A stretch of DNA of 47,371 nt, taken from IMG/VR virus record IMGVR_UViG_3300025913_000057, positions 1 through 47,371 of that record. One strand, written 5' to 3'. Below, piece by piece: positions 2,444 to 38,257 of the stretch; the first letter of the stretch is position 1; each line of letters starts with the position of its first letter. The notes under the pieces were generated by a model. The model did not search any database, had not been told where the DNA came from, and saw only the letters and a list, made by a program, of their open reading frames with translations. The DNA comes from a virus. The position numbers and the translations under genes were made by a program.

Positions 2444-2539
2444 TTAAGGCGATTAATTACGGTCTAGCTGGGCGGAGGAATGCCATAATGAGTTTCCTTC
2501 GACTTCACGGTTTTACGCTATTTTAGTAGCCGTTTGCGT

Positions 2540-3976
2540 TCATCGTCCGCGCGTGTCTAGAAACCCTATTGTCGTCATGTTGCCGCCTGAGTTATCCCAG
2601 CTGAGTTGGACCTGAGCAGACTGGTTGGTAAACTGTTCCAATGTGCCTGATGCTGTTGACACGATGGCGCCATTAGTTCCAACGCCAAAAGACACCACAC
2701 TATTGGTGTTTGTTCCATCGAAAACGTGCGCCGTTGACGCAACGCTACTTCCATTTCCGCTGATGTTTATTGAGAATTTTGCATAAACGCGGATGCCGGT
2801 AGGCACGTTTACGCTGAGATTGGACTTCGCCCGGCTGCCTCCTGAATAATCCGCAGTGAGGCTCGCTGCGGTATAAGTGAACCTATCGCCGTCTTGGACG
2901 AATAGCTGAATCGACCCTGCGGTCCTAATAATGGAACCGATGCGTCGGAACAGCGTGTAATTCGCCGGGAGCGTGGGGTTGGTCGCGCTCAACGACGTGA
3001 GCACATCAACCACACGCGTGTCGGTCCTCATAATCAGAAATACGTGGTAGGTATTGTTGCCAATCGTGCCAGTGTCGAGCGAGCCATTGCCACTGCCGAC
3101 GGCCCACGATGCGGACGTATTTTTAGTGACGGCGCTGGTTAGGATAAGATTATCAACGTTAGTACTATTTCGGGCCTGTCCCGCCGCGATATCCAAAACG
3201 CTGGCTGGCGTTACGGCGTCATTCGATAGCGTGCATCCGAAAAGGTAGCCCTGTCCCATCGCCGCGTCCGCGATAGTGATGTTCGCATTCGGGGCCGTGA
3301 GTGTTCGCGTCGTTCCAGTTGCAATAGCCGAGGCATCAAAGGCGATCTGCTTGGTGATGTCGCTGGTGTTCTGGATGCGGAATGAGCCGTCCGCGAAAGA
3401 GTTCGGCGGGATTGGCGCCGGCTCAGATAGGAGGTGGAAAGCGCCTCTGGCTTGGTCGAAAATTAACGTGACGGCGTTACCTGCGACAACCTCTCCGCCC
3501 ACCAGCGGAGTTGGGCCCGCCTGCAAATCTTGCAACACCGGAATACCCGAGCCGCCGCCGGGAGCCACCGTCAAGCCGCTGGTGTTAGTCAGACCAGGCC
3601 CAACGATAAAGCTGATTTGCTGACCGTCCTGCTGCGTGAAGTTGGATGCAGCAATGACCTGCGCGTTGGGTGTGCCGGTAGATGTCCCGCCCCAACCGAG
3701 ACCATTACCAGCCGTGTCGCTCGTTACCTGATCGTAGATCAAGTTCCCCGCGCTATCTCGGACGATAAACCTATAAGTTCCGCTGCCATAAACGATCGCA
3801 CGGCCGGCGGCGTCCAACACGATGGGATTTGTGTTTAGAATCGTGCTCGCGGCATCCTGCCAGGTCTGTTTCGAAGTTGTTGTATTAGGCACGAGCGTCT
3901 GGACGGTGCCTGCGGCAAGCGGGTTGCCGTTGGCATCGAAAAAGACAATCTCAGGTGGCGGCAGAATTGTTCCCAT
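2540..3976 (-). CDS. tail fibre/tail protein with head-binding-like N-terminus
   Basis: This is a 478-aa, beta-rich, Thr/Ser/Asn-rich virion protein. ATG 3976 has CGGAG about 6 bases upstream. The longer open frame upstream translates terminators and GGCA repeats and is not coding. Residues 1-90 (EIVFFDANGNPLAAGTV, NPIVLDAAGRA, GSGTYRFIVRDSAGNLIYD) resemble the domain that fixes tail spikes or fibres to the tail hub of podoviruses. The C-terminal half (about 280-478) is beta-sandwich-like (SFGVGTNGAIVSTASGT). It occupies the place of P22 gene 9, after the ejection genes, but no endorhamnosidase-like helix signature is visible. Receptor binding is inferred. Confidence 0.75.
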   Translation of the reverse strand: MGTILPPPEIVFFDANGNPLAAGTVQTLVPNTTTSKQTWQDAASTILNTNPIVLDAAGRAIVYGSGTYRFIVRDSAGNLIYDQVTSDTAGNGLGWGGTSTGTPNAQVIAASNFTQQDGQQISFIVGPGLTNTSGLTVAPGGGSGIPVLQDLQAGPTPLVGGEVVAGNAVTLIFDQARGAFHLLSEPAPIPPNSFADGSFRIQNTSDITKQIAFDASAIATGTTRTLTAPNANITIADAAMGQGYLFGCTLSNDAVTPASVLDIAAGQARNSTNVDNLILTSAVTKNTSASWAVGSGNGSLDTGTIGNNTYHVFLIMRTDTRVVDVLTSLSATNPTLPANYTLFRRIGSIIRTAGSIQLFVQDGDRFTYTAASLTADYSGGSRAKSNLSVNVPTGIRVYAKFSINISGNGSSVASTAHVFDGTNTNSVVSFGVGTNGAIVSTASGTLEQFTNQSAQVQLSWDNSGGNMTTIGFLDTRGR

Positions 3977-3990
3977 TGCGAACTCCGGGC

Positions 3991-4016
3991 AATAAAAAAC
4001 CCGCCGAAGCGGGTTG
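3991..4016 (-). terminator. intrinsic terminator, distal of a tandem pair
   Basis: On the minus strand AACCCGC-TTCG-GCGGGTT is followed by TTTTATTG: a 7-bp stem with a stable UUCG tetraloop and a U-run. It lies immediately before the start of the tail protein gene and ends the accessory cassette transcript. Confidence 0.88.
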
Positions 4017-4032
4017 GGTTGTCTCTGAAATG

Positions 4033-4060
4033 GAAAAGGGCGACCCCGAAGGATCGCCCC
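4033..4060 (-). terminator. intrinsic terminator, proximal of a tandem pair
   Basis: On the minus strand GGGGCGATCC-TTCG-GGGTCGCCC is followed by TTTT. It is a long GC-rich stem with a UUCG loop, 17 bases before the next terminator. The doubling suggests that the upstream RNA must be fully insulated from the tail gene. Confidence 0.85.
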
Positions 4061-4239
4061 GTGTTGGCCTAGCGCGGCCCCGCCGTGCCAAGCCGCACCG
4101 TGACGGGCCCCGACGTGAAACGCCGTACGTCGCCTTGCCTGCCATGACATTCGTCGAGTGGTCTTATCTTACGTCGACACACCGTGCCTGCCCTGCCGTG
4201 ATCCCTGCCAGCCGAGTAGGGCTACTCGGCTCCGCACTT
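4061..4239 (-). ncRNA. candidate structured RNA with degenerate GGCA-type repeats
   Basis: This is about 180 bases without a gene between the stop of the 169-aa gene and two terminators. On the minus strand it opens with a 9-10 bp hairpin (AGCCGAGTA / TACTCGGCT, 4210-4231). It then holds many short GGCA units: GGCAGGGATCACGGCAGGGC, GGCACGG, GGCAGGCAAGGC, GTGCGGCTTGGCACGGCGG. A forced translation gives an ARHGAAWHGGAAL-like peptide, a sign of a short-period repeat rather than a protein. It belongs to the transcript of the two upstream genes. Whether it is a stable RNA is not known. Confidence 0.4.
4210..4231. repeat. near-perfect palindrome at cassette end
   Basis: AGCCGAGTAG-GG-CTACTCGGCT: ten complementary bases on each side of a 2-base centre, in practice a 9-bp stem with a 4-base loop. 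It is nine bases past the stop of the 169-aa gene. No U-run follows on either strand, so it is more likely an RNA-end or processing structure or a protein site than a terminator. Confidence 0.6.
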
Positions 4240-4749
4240 CTACGATGCTGCTTTAACGTCCAGCAGCGCCCGTTTCTCTAGTTCGCTGGCCAGCCTTTCC
4301 AGCGACGAAAGATCATACCCAACCGCCTTCACTGCATCAGCGTATCGACCGAGCCATGCTCGCAACCCCATTGCGGCCTGTCGGCAGTGCTCATCGACGT
4401 GGCCTTGATCCTTCGGATCGACAAGTACGTAGCCACCACCGTCCTGGCGCCCCCGAATGGGAGAAATCACCATTGGCATAGTGCTCTCGCGGACCCTCAC
4501 CCTGCGCTTGCCGCCGCTGATCTCGGTGACGGTAAACGTCACACGGAGATCGCGAGCGAAGGCGCGAGCCTGCTCAAGTTGATGGGCCTGCGCAGCCTTG
4601 TCAGCATCCCACTCGAACCATTCGTAGGCCGGATGCTTCTTGCCAGTCTTGCGGACCTCGTCAAGGAAGAGGGCGGCGTTATAGTGCCCGTTGTGACGAA
4701 CGGCGAACTCTTTGACAATACGCTGGCGGGTGAGTTTGGAGAGGGACAT
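4240..4749 (-). CDS. conserved phage protein, partner of the RAMP-like gene
   Basis: This is a 169-aa protein. The ATG follows the TAA of the upstream gene directly (TAAATG), so the two are one transcriptional and probably translational unit. It is helical at the N-terminus (SKLTRQRIVKEFAVRHNGHY), then has the motif HPAYEWFEWDADKAAQAHQL, a short beta region (RVTFTVTEISGGKRRVRVRE) and a helical C-terminus ending about ten bases before the hairpin. From memory, proteins with the FEWD..KAA motif sit beside the same 250-aa family in other phages. No enzyme motif is visible and the role is unknown. Confidence 0.7.
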   Translation of the reverse strand: MSLSKLTRQRIVKEFAVRHNGHYNAALFLDEVRKTGKKHPAYEWFEWDADKAAQAHQLEQARAFARDLRVTFTVTEISGGKRRVRVRESTMPMVISPIRGRQDGGGYVLVDPKDQGHVDEHCRQAAMGLRAWLGRYADAVKAVGYDLSSLERLASELEKRALLDVKAAS

Positions 4750-5502
4750 TTATGCCGCCCTCCGCTTCACTTCGCTGTCGTAGAACTCCATCAGGTCGAT
4801 GGTATCTCGATCAGCGTATTCCGGATCAGCGAGAGCAGCTTCCTGCGCAGATCGGCCGTGCTTCTTGACCAGATCATCCCATTCGGCGTCCTTGTCACCT
4901 TCTCCTAGCACCCGGAAGGAACCGAACGCGCCCTTCCCTTTCTCTTGGCGATAGTCTCCGACGCCGATCAGCACGCCGGCGTTGCAAAGAAGCGCCACGA
5001 CTGACGCGACCGACAGTTGCGGTACTATGAATTGCACCTCTATCTCGGCGCCCCACTTCGGCAGAAATGCACGAGTTCGAACGTCAGGTGTGCGGTTGAT
5101 GTCGGCTGATCGCGTCACGTCCATCCGCAACTGTGGTGTGCCGTAAAGCGGCACAAAGTCGCCGGGCATAAAGAGCAGCCGTTGCGCTGACGTCTTGGTG
5201 AGGCCGGGCGTCTCAAGTGCGGCTGTTGCCATCGCCGCCTTCACCGCAACAACGCGAAGCCCGAGAGCAGTCGGACCGCCCGGAAGGATTTCAGCGCTGT
5301 CGCGATATTCCTGAAGGGGGAAGTGTTTGATGCCGGCGCGATCCGCCTTTCCCTTCTTTTGGCCGCCAACGAGAAGCTGCTGCTTCACCTTGTTCGCCAT
5401 CCGGTTCTGGAACAGCGGCGTGGTGCCGATGATGCGAAGCCTCACCGACGCACGGCGAAGCGGCTGTACCGTGATATCGGCTGTTTCTTTCTTGATTGGC
5501 AT
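4750..5502 (-). CDS. RAMP/Cas7-like (?) conserved phage protein
   Basis: This is a 250-aa protein. ATG 5502 has GGAG about 8 bases upstream. Seen directly: a first strand and loop RLRIIGTTPLFQNRMANK (about 21-38), a middle part with LGLRVVAVKAAMATAAL, a segment DVRTRAFLPKWGAEIEVQFI, and a glycine-rich end GVLIGVGDYRQEKGKGAFGSF. A 'GTTPL-Q-R' first strand and a C-terminal Gly-rich loop are reminiscent of RAMP-fold RNA-binding proteins such as Cas7, but I cannot establish homology from sequence alone. It is followed by the 169-aa gene and the GGCA-repeat RNA region. The role is unknown. Binding of the downstream RNA is a hypothesis. Confidence 0.6.
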   Translation of the reverse strand: MPIKKETADITVQPLRRASVRLRIIGTTPLFQNRMANKVKQQLLVGGQKKGKADRAGIKHFPLQEYRDSAEILPGGPTALGLRVVAVKAAMATAALETPGLTKTSAQRLLFMPGDFVPLYGTPQLRMDVTRSADINRTPDVRTRAFLPKWGAEIEVQFIVPQLSVASVVALLCNAGVLIGVGDYRQEKGKGAFGSFRVLGEGDKDAEWDDLVKKHGRSAQEAALADPEYADRDTIDLMEFYDSEVKRRAA

Positions 5503-6284: not shown

Positions 6285-6658
6285 CAGTTACCTTCCCATC
6301 GGTAGCCGGTGATAGTGAAGTCTTTGTAATCCGGCTTAGCAACAGAAGTTGTGCCGGTGAAGATCACCGCGCATTGCAACTGACGGGGAGGAATGACCAT
6401 CATGGTTTGGCCTACTGGTACGACCGCCCCGGCGCCAGAACCAAGAATAACCCATCTAAACGCGGAACTAATGTTATCCAATCGAACCGATGACGTAGGG
6501 TCTCCGTGCTCAGCCACATAGGCGGCGACCGACTGGCCGACCCACCCATCAAGCGCCCCGCTCATCCTTGTTTGCTGCGCCTGAGATGCGTCCTGGCTAT
6601 CCATCGTGCAACCGCCGAGCGTCACTAACGCCAGAATTGCGATCAGCCATCTAAGCAT
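6281..6658 (-). CDS. lipoprotein, accessory island
   Basis: This is a 125-aa protein. ATG 6658 has GGAGGGGG about 7 bases upstream. The signal sequence MLRWLIAILALVTLGGC has a clear lipobox (LGGC, Cys17), so the mature protein is tethered to a membrane on the periplasmic side. The mature part includes a conserved-looking GWVGQSVAAYVAEHGDPTSS segment, as in small bacterial lipoproteins with a 'GxpxxxVxxxhGxPt' motif, and ends in two cysteines' worth of beta-rich sequence (LQCAVIFTGT, RWEGNC). It ends convergent with the RHH gene, overlapping by 4 bases. Superinfection exclusion is a reasonable but untested guess. Confidence 0.7.
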   Translation of the reverse strand: MLRWLIAILALVTLGGCTMDSQDASQAQQTRMSGALDGWVGQSVAAYVAEHGDPTSSVRLDNISSAFRWVILGSGAGAVVPVGQTMMVIPPRQLQCAVIFTGTTSVAKPDYKDFTITGYRWEGNC

Positions 6659-6727
6659 TGAGAACCCCCTCCACACACGAAGGAAGGACTATTTCACAAC
6701 GACCGTTTATCCGCTATATGGGCAAGC

Positions 6728-6970
6728 ATGCCCGATCCGATCGACCTAGGCCCGCACGAGTACAGCCGCTTCGACAAGCGGTCTGGAAAGATGGTCCGCG
6801 ACTACTCGCCTAAGTTCATGCGAAACATGACGTTTCTGGCGATCGCCATGCTGGTGTGGGCGTTCTGGTATCGCCATGATGTGAGCGTCGACAACCTGTT
6901 CGGCTTTACCGCCATGATCGCGTTTTTTGGCGGGATCACCGCTGCGAACTGGCTCAAAAACCTCTACTGA
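6728..6970 (+). CDS. two-segment membrane protein, moron-like
   Basis: This is an 80-aa protein on the strand opposite to the late operon. The start ATG 6728 is followed by a charged 30-residue cytoplasmic part (HEYSRFDKRSGKMVRDYSPK). Two membrane helices follow, about 34-48 (MTFLAIAMLVWAFWY) and about 57-75 (LFGFTAMIAFFGGITAANW). The upstream gap (6659-6727) holds a TATATG box and is shared with the divergent lipoprotein. It ends convergent with the ejection protein gene, overlapping 7 bases. The place corresponds to P22 sieA and similar exclusion genes. Function not established. Confidence 0.6.
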   Translation: MPDPIDLGPHEYSRFDKRSGKMVRDYSPKFMRNMTFLAIAMLVWAFWYRHDVSVDNLFGFTAMIAFFGGITAANWLKNLY

Positions 6971-25945: not shown

Positions 25946-26323
25946 TTACGAGAAGACCTGCTTCACGGTAAAGGCGATAGAGTCGCTCGTGTTTAGGTTG
26001 ATGACGCTGAAATCGCCGTAGATATCCATCAGGCCGCCCGTAGGAGGCGATCCTGTACCGGCAGCGTCGAATGCCCCAACCTCTGTGATCGCCCGGCTAC
26101 CAGCCGCTGCAATCGTCGCGACGAGCTGCAACGTGTCATTGGTCACGGTGGTCGTGACCTGAGTATTGGCCGTGGCCGAACGCGCTTCCGTCGTGCCGGT
26201 CGTGGTGACTGTGGTCGCCGTCTTAGCTGCGCCGGAACCAGTGCCCCACTGCAGCCAGAACGAGGCAGCAGCGAGCAAGCTCGTGATCCGCGCTAGGCCA
26301 GAGTTCTGGGTTTGCTGACTCAT
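25946..26323 (-). CDS. small virion protein linked to tailspike
   Basis: This is a 125-aa, Thr/Ala-rich protein (ARITSLLAAASFWLQWGTGS, TRALV-like strands, GGLMDIYGDFSVINLNTSDS, FTVKQVFS end). ATG 26323 overlaps the HNH gene stop (ATGA). Family members lie in front of fibre genes in other phages; it is likely an adapter or structural protein of the tail tip. No catalytic motif. Confidence 0.65.
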   Translation of the reverse strand: MSQQTQNSGLARITSLLAAASFWLQWGTGSGAAKTATTVTTTGTTEARSATANTQVTTTVTNDTLQLVATIAAAGSRAITEVGAFDAAGTGSPPTGGLMDIYGDFSVINLNTSDSIAFTVKQVFS

Positions 26324-26820
26324 TCAAACCTCGCAAATTCGCCGAAGTGTCGGAGTGCGGCTGCCCGATACAGTTGGTGTGCTTCTTCAGCGGTCTCGCG
26401 GTATCCGAGGTGAACGTGACGCGAATTGACCCCGATACTAGCCCGGAACTTTTTTGCGCCGTGATCCCATCGAACGCCCTTGAAGCCAGTCTTATTTCGG
26501 GAGGATAGCGGCATGTTGCCTTTGTTTTCGCTTGAGCTACCGACCCGCAGATTAGCTAGCCGGTTGTCCGCTTTGTCGCCGTTAATGTGGTCAACTTCGC
26601 CATTTGGCCATTCGCCGTGCAGTAAAAACCACGCTAGGCGATGAACCTGATAGATCCTGTAATCCACCATCGCGATCAGATATCCGTGATTGGATTTTGT
26701 CCCGATGACAGCCCCGGCTTTGGCTCTAGTGCCGGTCGTGGCAGTGCGGATCACTCGCCCTGTTTCGGGTTCGAACCGCAGAATAGCGCGGGCTCTATCG
26801 ATGCCGACTAACTCCGCCAT
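26320..26820 (-). CDS. HNH endonuclease with C-terminal AP2 domain (copy A)
   Basis: This is a 166-aa, free-standing homing-type nuclease. The HNH core (about 55-98) shows QVHRLAWFLLHGEWPNGEVD, then DHINGDKADNRLANLRV. The AP2-like DNA-binding half follows (GFKGVRWDHGAKKFRASIGV, HLGYRETAEEAHQLYRAA, then HFGEFARF). It nicks or cuts DNA and can copy itself into new sites. The 52-aa gene upstream ends 3 bases before it. A second, related gene lies at 37369-37845, ending with the same short coding stretch. Confidence 0.9.
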   Translation of the reverse strand: MAELVGIDRARAILRFEPETGRVIRTATTGTRAKAGAVIGTKSNHGYLIAMVDYRIYQVHRLAWFLLHGEWPNGEVDHINGDKADNRLANLRVGSSSENKGNMPLSSRNKTGFKGVRWDHGAKKFRASIGVNSRHVHLGYRETAEEAHQLYRAAALRHFGEFARFE

Positions 26821-33798: not shown

Positions 33799-34517
33799 GC
33801 GCGCCTCGCTTCACGGCGCGCGACTTGGCGCGCATGCTGGCGAGCGTGGACGTATGGAGCGACCACTTGACGGTTGCCGATCTTCGCTTCAACGTCACCG
33901 ACGAGAGCGACCAATGCGTCGAACTCTGACCGGATCGCCGACAAGTCTTGCATTGGAGCAGATAGCCGCTGCAATTGTTCCGCCAACGCATCGAAGGCCG
34001 CGATGTACTTGACCTTCCATGCTGTTGCCGCCGCGCCCGTAAAGCCCATGACAACCAGAGAGAAGCCATTGCGGCTCATGCGGTAGGCGCGGTGTTTCCT
34101 GCTCTTGGCATCGTGATATTCAATCGGCGCAAAATTGCGCTGATCGAACTCAGGTCCGCATTCCTCGCGAACCCGATCGATGGACCGAAGCATGTCTTTG
34201 TGTGCTTTGCCGAAGGTCTCCGCCAAATCGTAGCTGAAGCAGACGGGCTCGCCGGCCACTAACTGGACCGGAACCGGATGCTCCGGCATAGGGTCTTCGC
34301 GATCACCGATAAATCCGGCCGATGCCAGTTCGCGTCGAATCTGAGAGCGCTCGTTGAGCGGGGCTCGCCAGTCACTCGGCGTGGCAGCTACAATATGCAG
34401 CCTGCCGAAATTCTTGCCCCGGCGGATATGGACGTGCCTTCCACCAGGTTCAATCCGATGCGGAACACCAGCTTGCCGAAGCTCATCGATGACAGCATCT
34501 AGGCACGGATTGCTCAT
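33795..34517 (-). CDS. Rha family regulator with N-terminal HicA-like module
   Basis: This is a 240-aa protein. Residues 1-60 resemble a small HicA/dsRBD-like module (AVIDELRQAGVPHRIEPGGR, HVHIRRGKNFGRLHIVAATP, SDWRAPLN). Residues about 85-190 are a Rha domain (FSYDLAETFGKAHKDMLRSI, EFDQRNFAPIEYHDAKSRKH, YRMSRNGFSLVVMGFTGAAA, WKVKYIAAFDAL). Rha proteins were named as regulators that limit phage growth in hosts without IHF. The fusion may combine RNA or DNA binding with regulation. ATGA-coupled to the DnaA-like gene. Confidence 0.82.
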   Translation of the reverse strand: MSNPCLDAVIDELRQAGVPHRIEPGGRHVHIRRGKNFGRLHIVAATPSDWRAPLNERSQIRRELASAGFIGDREDPMPEHPVPVQLVAGEPVCFSYDLAETFGKAHKDMLRSIDRVREECGPEFDQRNFAPIEYHDAKSRKHRAYRMSRNGFSLVVMGFTGAAATAWKVKYIAAFDALAEQLQRLSAPMQDLSAIRSEFDALVALVGDVEAKIGNRQVVAPYVHARQHARQVARREARRA

Positions 34518-35014
34518 GCTAGACCTGCCTTCCTGCGCTCAAGGTGCCTGCGGATGCCGTAGATTACGGTTGTGTGGTCCTTGCCTCCGAGACGCTTCCC
34601 AATCGCCGGCAAGCTCATCGTCGTGTTCTGACGCAGCTCGTACATGACCTCTTGGCGGGCAATGACGAGGTTTGCTGTCCGGCGAGCGCTGCAAATGTCT
34701 ATGACGCTGAACCCGTGCTTAGCGGCGACAGCGTGGGTGATTTTGCGCCAGTTCTTGCTTCGAACTGGTTTGTCCGAGTCAGCCAAACGCTCGAACCCCG
34801 GCGAAGCCAGCCAAAGGTAGTCGCGCTGCCTAGGTCGCTTCTCGGCGGTGATTTGCTTGGGGGCGCCACGCGGTCTAATTTCCATCTCTGGATGCGCTCG
34901 CCGCAATGCGCTAGCAAATGCCGCCGTCTGCGCGCGCATCTCGACACGACGCGCCGCATCGGTGAACGAAATCCAGGTATCCTTAGTCTCGGCGAACGGA
35001 TCGGCGTAACTCAT
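34514..35014 (-). CDS. DnaA domain IV-like DNA-binding protein
   Basis: This is a 166-aa protein. The C-terminal half is the DnaA DNA-binding domain: CSARRTANLVIARQEVMYEL (helical start with conserved Arg), RQNTTMSLPAIGKRLGGKDH and TTVIYGIRRH (the DnaA signature, GGKDHTTV-H). There is no AAA+ domain. The N-terminal half (about 1-100) is unknown and basic. A free-standing domain IV could bind DnaA boxes in the phage or host origin, competing with or recruiting host DnaA. It lies directly after the GcrA-like gene, coupled by ATGA. Confidence 0.88.
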   Translation of the reverse strand: MSYADPFAETKDTWISFTDAARRVEMRAQTAAFASALRRAHPEMEIRPRGAPKQITAEKRPRQRDYLWLASPGFERLADSDKPVRSKNWRKITHAVAAKHGFSVIDICSARRTANLVIARQEVMYELRQNTTMSLPAIGKRLGGKDHTTVIYGIRRHLERRKAGLA

Positions 35015-35475
35015 GCCAGCACCGCCTTGCGCGACTTCAGTACGGGCAATCCCGTGTAGACGACGGCGTAGTGCTCAGCGCAATATGACTTACCGGGGAC
35101 AGAGGGCTGGCCGCAGAATCCGAATCCATGAAGTTTCGGATCTCCGAACGGGTATTTGCAGGTGTGTTCAGTCAGCTCCAGCAGCGACAGAAGCCCGATC
35201 GACGGAACAGGCGGAATTGGGAGATCAGCCGGCGGACCGACGGGCACACGCCGCTTCACGACGCGGCTCACTGCAGGCTTCTTGCGATCTGCAGCTACCA
35301 GCCGCTTGCGCTCAAGGTTATGAGCCAGGCGCGGTAGGTTCAGCCGATGAACTTTGCTGATGACGGCATTGCGTGATGAGCCGCCGAGTTCCTTCGCGAT
35401 CTCAGAAGCGCTAAAACCTTCGCGCCAGCGAACCTTCAAAAGCTCGATACGTTCGTCTGTCCATGCGAGGGTCAT
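35011..35475 (-). CDS. gcrA: GcrA-type cell cycle regulator, phage-borne
   Basis: This is a 154-aa protein. N-terminal TDERIELLKVRWREGFSASE, IAKELGGSSRNAVISKVHRL is the GcrA DNA-binding helix-turn-helix. The C-terminal part is LSLLELTEHTCKYPFGDPKL, with HGFGFCGQPSVPGKSYCAEH, the sigma-interacting, Cys/His-rich end typical of the family. In Caulobacter GcrA binds sigma70 RNA polymerase and methylated GANTC promoters to drive S-phase genes. A phage copy could redirect this switch to phage promoters. Coupled by ATGA to DUF1064 and the DnaA-like gene. Confidence 0.92.
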   Translation of the reverse strand: MTLAWTDERIELLKVRWREGFSASEIAKELGGSSRNAVISKVHRLNLPRLAHNLERKRLVAADRKKPAVSRVVKRRVPVGPPADLPIPPVPSIGLLSLLELTEHTCKYPFGDPKLHGFGFCGQPSVPGKSYCAEHYAVVYTGLPVLKSRKAVLA

Positions 35476-37368: not shown

Positions 37369-37845
37369 TCACGCAACCCTCGCAAATTCGCCGTGAAACC
37401 GGATAGCCGCCTCGGCGTAGGCTTCGTGAGCAGAGTTAGGGTCATCATAGACCCCGAGTTCATGCCGCTGGTTATCAACCGTGATGGCGGCGCGGAACTT
37501 TTTTCCATGGGCAACCACGCCGCGAGGCAGATCTCTGGAAATTGGCCGTTGATTGTGAGTGTTGTGACTCCGGTTGGCGGCTCTGAGGTTCGACCATCTG
37601 TTGTTAAGCCTGTCGAGGTCTGCATGATCGATTTCGAAGGCCGGCCAAAGACCCGTCTGGAGCCGCCAAGCGATCTTGTGCCCTTTGAGTTTCTTCCCGC
37701 CAAACTGCACAACCAGATAGCCAGTGTCGCTCGTTCTCCCGCAAGGGGAACCCGCGGCCATACGACCGAGGCTTACCTTCCAGGTAAGACCTCCAGTCAG
37801 AGGATCGTAAGCGATGAACTCGTGGATATTGTCGTGTGCGCTCAT
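37369..37845 (-). CDS. HNH endonuclease with C-terminal AP2 domain (copy B)
   Basis: This is a 158-aa protein from ATG 37845, overlapping the stop of the 40-aa gene (ATGA). The core has GHKIAWRLQTGLWPAFEIDH, then ADLDRLNNRWSNLRAANRSH and a final asparagine (NTHNQRP). The AP2 part is RGVVAHGKKFRAAITVDNQR, with DDPNSAHEAYAEAAIRFHGE and FARVA. It is related to copy A at 26320-26820 and ends with the same GGCGAATTTGCGAGG coding bases. A mobile, homing-type nuclease. Confidence 0.88.
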   Translation of the reverse strand: MSAHDNIHEFIAYDPLTGGLTWKVSLGRMAAGSPCGRTSDTGYLVVQFGGKKLKGHKIAWRLQTGLWPAFEIDHADLDRLNNRWSNLRAANRSHNTHNQRPISRDLPRGVVAHGKKFRAAITVDNQRHELGVYDDPNSAHEAYAEAAIRFHGEFARVA

Positions 37846-37964
37846 CTGTCCAACGCCTGATTGAGCAAGGCCATCGAAATCATGTTGGCCGTGAAATAGG
37901 CGACGCCGACAATGAAGACGCCAGCAAACGCAGCAGCAATGAGGTAGCCGAGAGCGCGGGTCAT
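37842..37964 (-). CDS. 40-aa single-pass membrane peptide
   Basis: Sequence MTRALGYLIAAAFAGVFIVG, VAYFTANMISMALLNQALDR. One membrane helix covers about residues 6-30. Both ends are ATGA-coupled, to the GIY-YIG-like gene upstream and to the HNH gene downstream, which strongly supports translation. Function unknown. Confidence 0.6.
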   Translation of the reverse strand: MTRALGYLIAAAFAGVFIVGVAYFTANMISMALLNQALDR

Positions 37965-38257
37965 GCGGCTTTCTCGCGAGAGGCTTTAACTCGCGCCTCA
38001 ATGGCAGCGAGGACTGTCGGCGTCGGGTAGAACCACTCGCTGCGAATGCGAAAGGCACCAAGCTCGATATGGAGGGCCTTCTCGGTCAGCATGTCGCCGG
38101 GCCATTGGGCGATGATGTGCATCTTCCAAGGGCTGAGCCGCTGAAGTTCAGAAAGCCGCCCCTCAGCCCGCGCGCCCGAATAGCCGATCTTGATCGGTCC
38201 ATCCGTTCCCACCTGAATGGCATAGTTGATGCCGTAGTAGGGCGCTGGAAAGATCAT
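37961..38257 (-). CDS. GIY-YIG-like (T5orf172/MUG113 type) protein
   Basis: This is a 98-aa protein. YYGINYAIQVGTDGPIKIGY with S and GRLSELQRLSPWKMHIIAQW gives the shortened GIY-YIG plan (Y..I..G...IKIGyS.....R...LQ). Then ALHIELGAFRIRSEWFYPTP supplies the conserved E-W-F-P end. Such domains are predicted nucleases. It is the second gene of the left operon, coupled by ATGA to the Cro-like gene. Confidence 0.8.
   Translation of the reverse strand: MIFPAPYYGINYAIQVGTDGPIKIGYSGARAEGRLSELQRLSPWKMHIIAQWPGDMLTEKALHIELGAFRIRSEWFYPTPTVLAAIEARVKASREKAA

Follow-up and report, generated by a model that had tools for sequence, protein, structure and literature searches.

A further VIPR cassette with readable guide RNAs in a Hyphomicrobiales phage genome

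VIPR systems and the two cassette proteins

Viral Interference Programmable Repeat (VIPR) systems were described only in 2026 (preprint of April to June 2026; PMC13142463) and are a proposed ancestor of CRISPR. The preprint presents them as systems used between phages, against rivals, and consisting of a RAMP protein (i.e., Vipr), an accessory gene, and vrRNAs of 9 to 16 YNNGG units (PMC13142463). It further states that the variable dinucleotides (NN) of the vrRNAs read DNA and skip one target base at each step, that a thumb domain of Vipr spaces the guide, and that each vrRNA has an invariable structured 3' tail; the proposed function is RNA-guided DNA recognition (PMC13142463).

The stretch of viral DNA that we analyzed (47,371 nucleotides; IMG/VR record IMGVR_UViG_3300025913_000057; hereafter, the window) carries a vipr gene, an accessory gene, and a guide array (Table 1). 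On the basis of family membership, the predicted fold, gene order, the periodicity of the array, a covarying hairpin, and the matches of related guides, we consider it highly probable that these elements constitute a VIPR system, i.e., a phage-encoded, CRISPR-like, RNA-guided system. The cassette is thus a further member of VIPR, and its guide RNAs are readable in its sequence. The sequence-only reading had interpreted the locus as a protein, a partner, and an RNA, which agrees with the RAMP fold and Vipr match, the partner gene, and the period-5 array with its hairpin; what escaped this nearly correct interpretation was that the array is a period-5 guide RNA. It also knew of no described function for the two protein families, and our own literature search on the repeats or on Cas7-like phage proteins, made prior to the PDB match described below, returned nothing useful. 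VIPR has since been described, and the function proposed in the preprint does involve RNA (PMC13142463).

Table 1. Positions of the cassette elements in the window
Feature	Positions	Strand	Evidence
vipr gene, 250-aa RAMP-fold Vipr, Gly-rich loop GVGDYRQEKGKGAFGSF	4750..5502	-	Profile, hhalign, AF2/Foldseek, phrog_4652
Predicted target of the Microvirga zambiensis prophage (L159) guide, 3' end of window vipr	4750..4773	-	16/16 specified bases
vap-like accessory gene, 169 aa, N-terminal helices and two-strand hairpin	4240..4749	-	Gene order, phrog_15946, AF2
9-bp hairpin AGCCGAGTA-GCCC-TACTCGGCT ahead of the repeat tract	4210..4231	-	Covariation in related loci
Conserved leader GGCAGGGATCACGGCAGGGCA, between hairpin and first tract	4189..4209	-	Consensus of related loci
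vrRNA tract 1, nine pentamers, NN = AC GT GA AA AA CA GA AT AT	4144..4188	-	Parse, periodicity
4-nt slip GGCA, tract 1/tract 2 boundary	4140..4143	-	5n+4 spacing in relatives, parse
vrRNA tract 2, fifteen pentamers, NN = AA GA AC GT AC GG CC AC GC TT AC GG CG TA CA	4065..4139	-	Parse, periodicity
UUCG terminator-like hairpin 1	4037..4060	-	U-rich 3' flank
UUCG terminator-like hairpin 2, then T-run	3998..4015	-	U-rich 3' flank

The 250-aa open reading frame is present as previously noted, with its GTTPLFQNR motif and Gly-rich segment. Its family profile matched the solved structure 36PP_D ("SUSP1 Vipr protein"; E = 1e-15) with the Gly-rich loop (G-loop) aligned, and hhalign of the family with agp039 of SUSP1, an Escherichia phage with a type II VIPR, gave 98.4% (E = 6.7e-15). 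An AF2 model of the protein alone had a pLDDT of 88 (residues about 37 to 70, inspected with regard to a thumb domain, are helical, with a lower pLDDT), and its Foldseek comparison with the PDB returned 48 matches with E <= 0.001, all 48 to CRISPR RAMP-type chains (Csm, Cmr, type VII, Cas7-11, and III-D; mostly Csm [type III-A] and type VII). The Cas7-like resemblance, which had been called weak, was strengthened by structure comparison, with Csm3/Cas7 subunits as matches, and the model comparison and the profile match to SUSP1 Vipr both show a RAMP rather than an unrelated fold. The protein is a single-domain RAMP that is homologous to SUSP1 Vipr and has the G-loop. Its family corresponds to PHROG 4652 (phrog_4652), which is carried as unknown function.

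The vipr stop and the start of the partner gene directly abut (TAAATG), in line with the coupling of the two frames read earlier from the sequence, and the partner directly follows vipr in the window and in most loci; in nearly all of the homologous loci it comes after vipr. The cassette thus has an accessory (vap) gene adjacent to vipr. All 89 members of the partner family fall in PHROG 15946 (phrog_15946), also carried as unknown function. The AF2 model of the 169-aa partner (pLDDT 94.7) had no confident match in the PDB or among the viral folds of BFVD; the protein may bind DNA. We compared the partner family with SUSP1 agp038, the gene adjacent to vipr in SUSP1 that we took as vap1, and hhalign gave a probability of 0.2%. 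Because the partner is unrelated to this gene, the window cassette is not of the characterized type II, and we rejected that assignment.

The comparison with SUSP1 (NC_028808.2) otherwise shows both shared and distinct features. As in SUSP1 (PMC13142463), a Vipr RAMP gene is directly followed by a partner; both systems are phage-borne, with YNNGG-type pentamer tracts on the gene strand and hairpins before the tracts (read by eye in SUSP1). In contrast, the window repeats are GGC-rich rather than GGT-rich, their tracts are parted by 4-nt GGCA slips (5n+4 spacing), and the pseudoknot 3' tail of the SUSP1 vrRNA was not found in the window, where the covarying hairpin and a leader precede the tract. 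Class 1 CRISPR RAMPs (Csm3, Cas7, and Cas7-11) share the predicted fold; however, the window has no cas operon or CRISPR array, encodes a single small RAMP, and shows a period of 5 where theirs is 6. We rejected a class 1 CRISPR-Cas assignment, given that the repeats are only degenerate pentamers, that an Rfam search of the window found no family match, and that Pfam searches with the 250-aa protein and the 169-aa partner returned chance matches only and no Cas family.

Guide array and related loci

The array consists of degenerate GGYNN repeats that extend with a period of 5 over about 145 nt and have two terminators at their end. Its period-5 G signal (summed over lags 5, 10, 15, and 20) is 0.88, a value reached by none of 2,000 dinucleotide shuffles and by 1 of 3,778 stretches of 149 nt that were sampled from both strands across the whole window. 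Near the genes it thus offers vrRNA tracts within the 9 to 16 GGY/NN repeats of VIPR (i.e., 9 and 15 units, with GGY relaxed). The GGCA-type short repeats previously placed at 4061-4239 are real as repeats, but their unit is the degenerate GGYNN pentamer, and GGCA is just a 4-nt slip. Slips at 5n+4 nt spacing (e.g., 39, 44, 49, 54, and 59) recur in many related arrays, and each guide most likely starts at a slip.

The near-perfect hairpin of 9 to 10 bp that had been noted was found as a 9-bp stem, and the two UUCG terminators were found as terminator-like hairpins. Across 10 copies of the stem from related loci, 77 of 78 scored pairs are kept and both sides have changed at several positions (e.g., GC/AT at pair 2, CG/TA/AT at pair 3, and CG/GC at pair 4); since the arms were aligned by hand, this count leans towards structure. 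In the window, the hairpin comes after the partner gene with no tract in between, which identifies it as an element placed ahead of a tract rather than as a tract's tail. The leader that follows has the consensus GGCRRGGATCACGGC...GCAGGC in the window and in L005, L008 (two copies), L010, L011, L017, L034, and L159, and is diverged in L157. RNA conserved at homologous loci, on which the sequence-only reading depended, is present as a period-5 array at nearly every locus and as hairpin pairing kept by the compensatory changes.

When viral contigs were searched with the 250-aa protein, 33 loci were obtained, nearly all with the second protein after it and with the GGYNN array either after the second gene or between the two genes. 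Close relatives occur in Bradyrhizobium uaiense, B. pachyrhizi, Microvirga zambiensis, Methylobacterium pseudosasicola, and an uncultured Rhizobiales. We also scanned viral contigs with the bare DNA pattern GGCNNGGCNNGGCAGGCNNGGCNNGGC, an unbiased search in which no protein was used, and found at least 120 stretches; a control pattern of the same base composition with its letters permuted found 3. Among the matches listed, protein profiles placed one or both proteins at 102 stretches and both at 84, with none on the opposite strand, and many of the remaining stretches are arrays at a contig end. Since the pattern mostly occurs with the proteins, on the same strand, and far exceeds its permuted control, the array and the genes form one cassette.

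The long arrays of two relatives (L015 and L016) may hold overlapping guides, like the staggered or overlapping arrays of the preprint (PMC13142463, fig. S18). Together with its relatives in Bradyrhizobium, Microvirga, and Methylobacterium genomes, the window phage widens VIPR by a partner unlike that of SUSP1 and by a distinct array layout, whose slips and hairpin are worth following.

The two families also occur in cultured Mycobacterium and Gordonia phages, in which arrays are annotated over as hypothetical genes. In Gordonia phage UmaThurman, the array (6625-6950) lies at the hypothetical gp40 (6643-6966), whose coding sequence is probably spurious. The array of Mycobacterium phage BobaPhett (4583-4830) overlaps the annotated gp51 and lies upstream of gp52, a Vipr homolog, and gp53 belongs to the partner family; that of Gordonia phage Ecliptus (5613-5873) occupies the unannotated gap that separates gp19 (the Vipr homolog) from gp20 (the partner). 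Cyanophage Cy-LDV1 encodes at 2477-3103 a Vipr homolog that is annotated as hypothetical and is 65% identical to the L057 copy. Directly downstream of the window cassette, a 478-aa gene (2540-3976) reads as tail-fibre-like by eye and has no Pfam match; the neighbor at the same place in L004 and L012 also reads as tail-fibre-like.

Guide code, targets, and alternative readings

The functional mechanism of the window cassette is carried over from other VIPR members; that the window phage expresses the array, and that its complex binds RNA and DNA and represses genes, are expectations from the preprint (PMC13142463). By this analogy, the 250-aa Vipr, a single-domain relative of Cas7/Csm3, would coat the pentamer-repeat transcript, with the GGY triplets held by Vipr subunits. 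The two variable bases of each unit would pair with double-stranded DNA, one target base being skipped per unit, and the ribonucleoprotein, assisted by the accessory protein, would keep genes of rival phages or prophages from being transcribed.

Exact matches of eight units (16 bases) outside the arrays, pooled over the loci, involved 12 distinct guide windows at a 1-nt skip, compared with 6 at a 0-nt skip, 3 at a 2-nt skip, and 2 to 6 in ten shuffles at the 1-nt skip. Half of the matching guide windows (6 of 12) start at a slip (Fisher p = 0.03), and the best 1-nt-skip matches are in codon phase. Given such small counts and loci that are related and not independent, these pooled matches support the 1-nt skip rule without proving it.

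Two of the related guides match vipr itself. A guide of L137 reads the vipr codons for EDMVRVGM in nine other loci, and the vipr of L137 encodes EDMVRIGL. The guide of the Microvirga zambiensis prophage (L159) has its match at the 3' end of the vipr genes of the window and two relatives; on the window gene, it reads GAx GTx AAx CGx AGx GCx GCx TAx (E V K R R A A stop), in codon phase and with the wobble base skipped. In its own vipr, L159 has the arginine codons AGA CGC where the guide needs CGx AGx, i.e., 2 mismatches in 16. We tentatively suggest, as a possibility that falls short of an even chance, that the cassette represents a VIPR variant in which guides delimited by GGCA slips lie behind a covarying hairpin and serve wars among Hyphomicrobiales prophages, with guides that hit the vipr of rivals and an owner's vipr that differs. 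In one case, swapped synonymous arginine codons are all that sets the owner's gene apart; if the suggestion is true, even a code that skips one base would separate self from rival. This codon-level difference is worth following, and natural guide-target pairs, including guides aimed at other VIPR systems, are now offered for testing.

For the guides of the window itself, viral contigs contained no exact match to tract 1 over nine units or to tract 2 over ten. Five host genomes of close relatives gave no target when up to two mismatches were allowed, nor did 298 genomes of one family for tract 2 at up to one mismatch. Shortened to its first eight units, tract 2 matched 8 viral stretches with no pattern. 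The first eight units of tract 1 had matches at 43 viral stretches, spread over many unrelated genes; 120 Bradyrhizobium and 79 Methylobacterium genomes had none. The tract 1 matches include a 146-aa gene in three loci and, in seven loci (L194 3352-4362 and six others), the start of a major capsid gene (TVEKNQEI, in codon phase) whose family has homologs in Rhizobium and Bradyrhizobium phages. The capsid gene start is a candidate target of tract 1 but only a lead, because the many unrelated genes matched make too many chance families.

This lack of full-length targets in the viral contigs and the family and host genomes searched would also be expected of a VIPR remnant, in which the genes are kept but the array has drifted and directs nothing specific. 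The GGY triplet is strict in just 2 of 9 units in tract 1 (much relaxed) and 10 of 15 in tract 2, so the window array may be relaxed or decaying, and its lag-5 G autocorrelation is 0.21 versus 0.39 to 0.61 in seven relatives. We nevertheless consider a remnant unlikely: the period of 5 is far above that of shuffles, the hairpin, leader, slip, terminators, and both reading frames are intact, and the arrays of L005, L011, and L034 look similarly relaxed by eye.

TRAP wraps repeated triplets spaced by two bases. The triplet-plus-two spacing of the array and its place beside the gene of its own protein resemble TRAP sites, and the array could in principle be an autoregulatory RNA-binding site with no guiding role. 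We rejected this reading as very improbable on the grounds of the RAMP fold and Vipr homology, the variable dinucleotides that match genes of other phages in codon phase, and one locus that holds repeated arrays with many different NN strings. A role of the array at the DNA level, where the partner protein would use it as an iteron-like site for partition or recombination, is scarcely credible and was likewise rejected: the arrays are long, repeated, and adjoin the genes, but those of the pattern scan (among the matches listed) are all on the gene strand without inversions, and the window array is bounded by RNA features, i.e., the covarying hairpin and the terminators.

Other genes in the window

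The window also carries a phage-borne homolog of the GcrA cell-cycle regulator (35011-35475; PF07750, E = 6e-39) and a protein with a DnaA C-terminal DNA-binding domain (34514-35014; PF08299, E = 3e-20). Two HNH_3 endonuclease genes (26320-26820 and 37369-38061) are likely of the homing type, the first with a weak AP2 domain.
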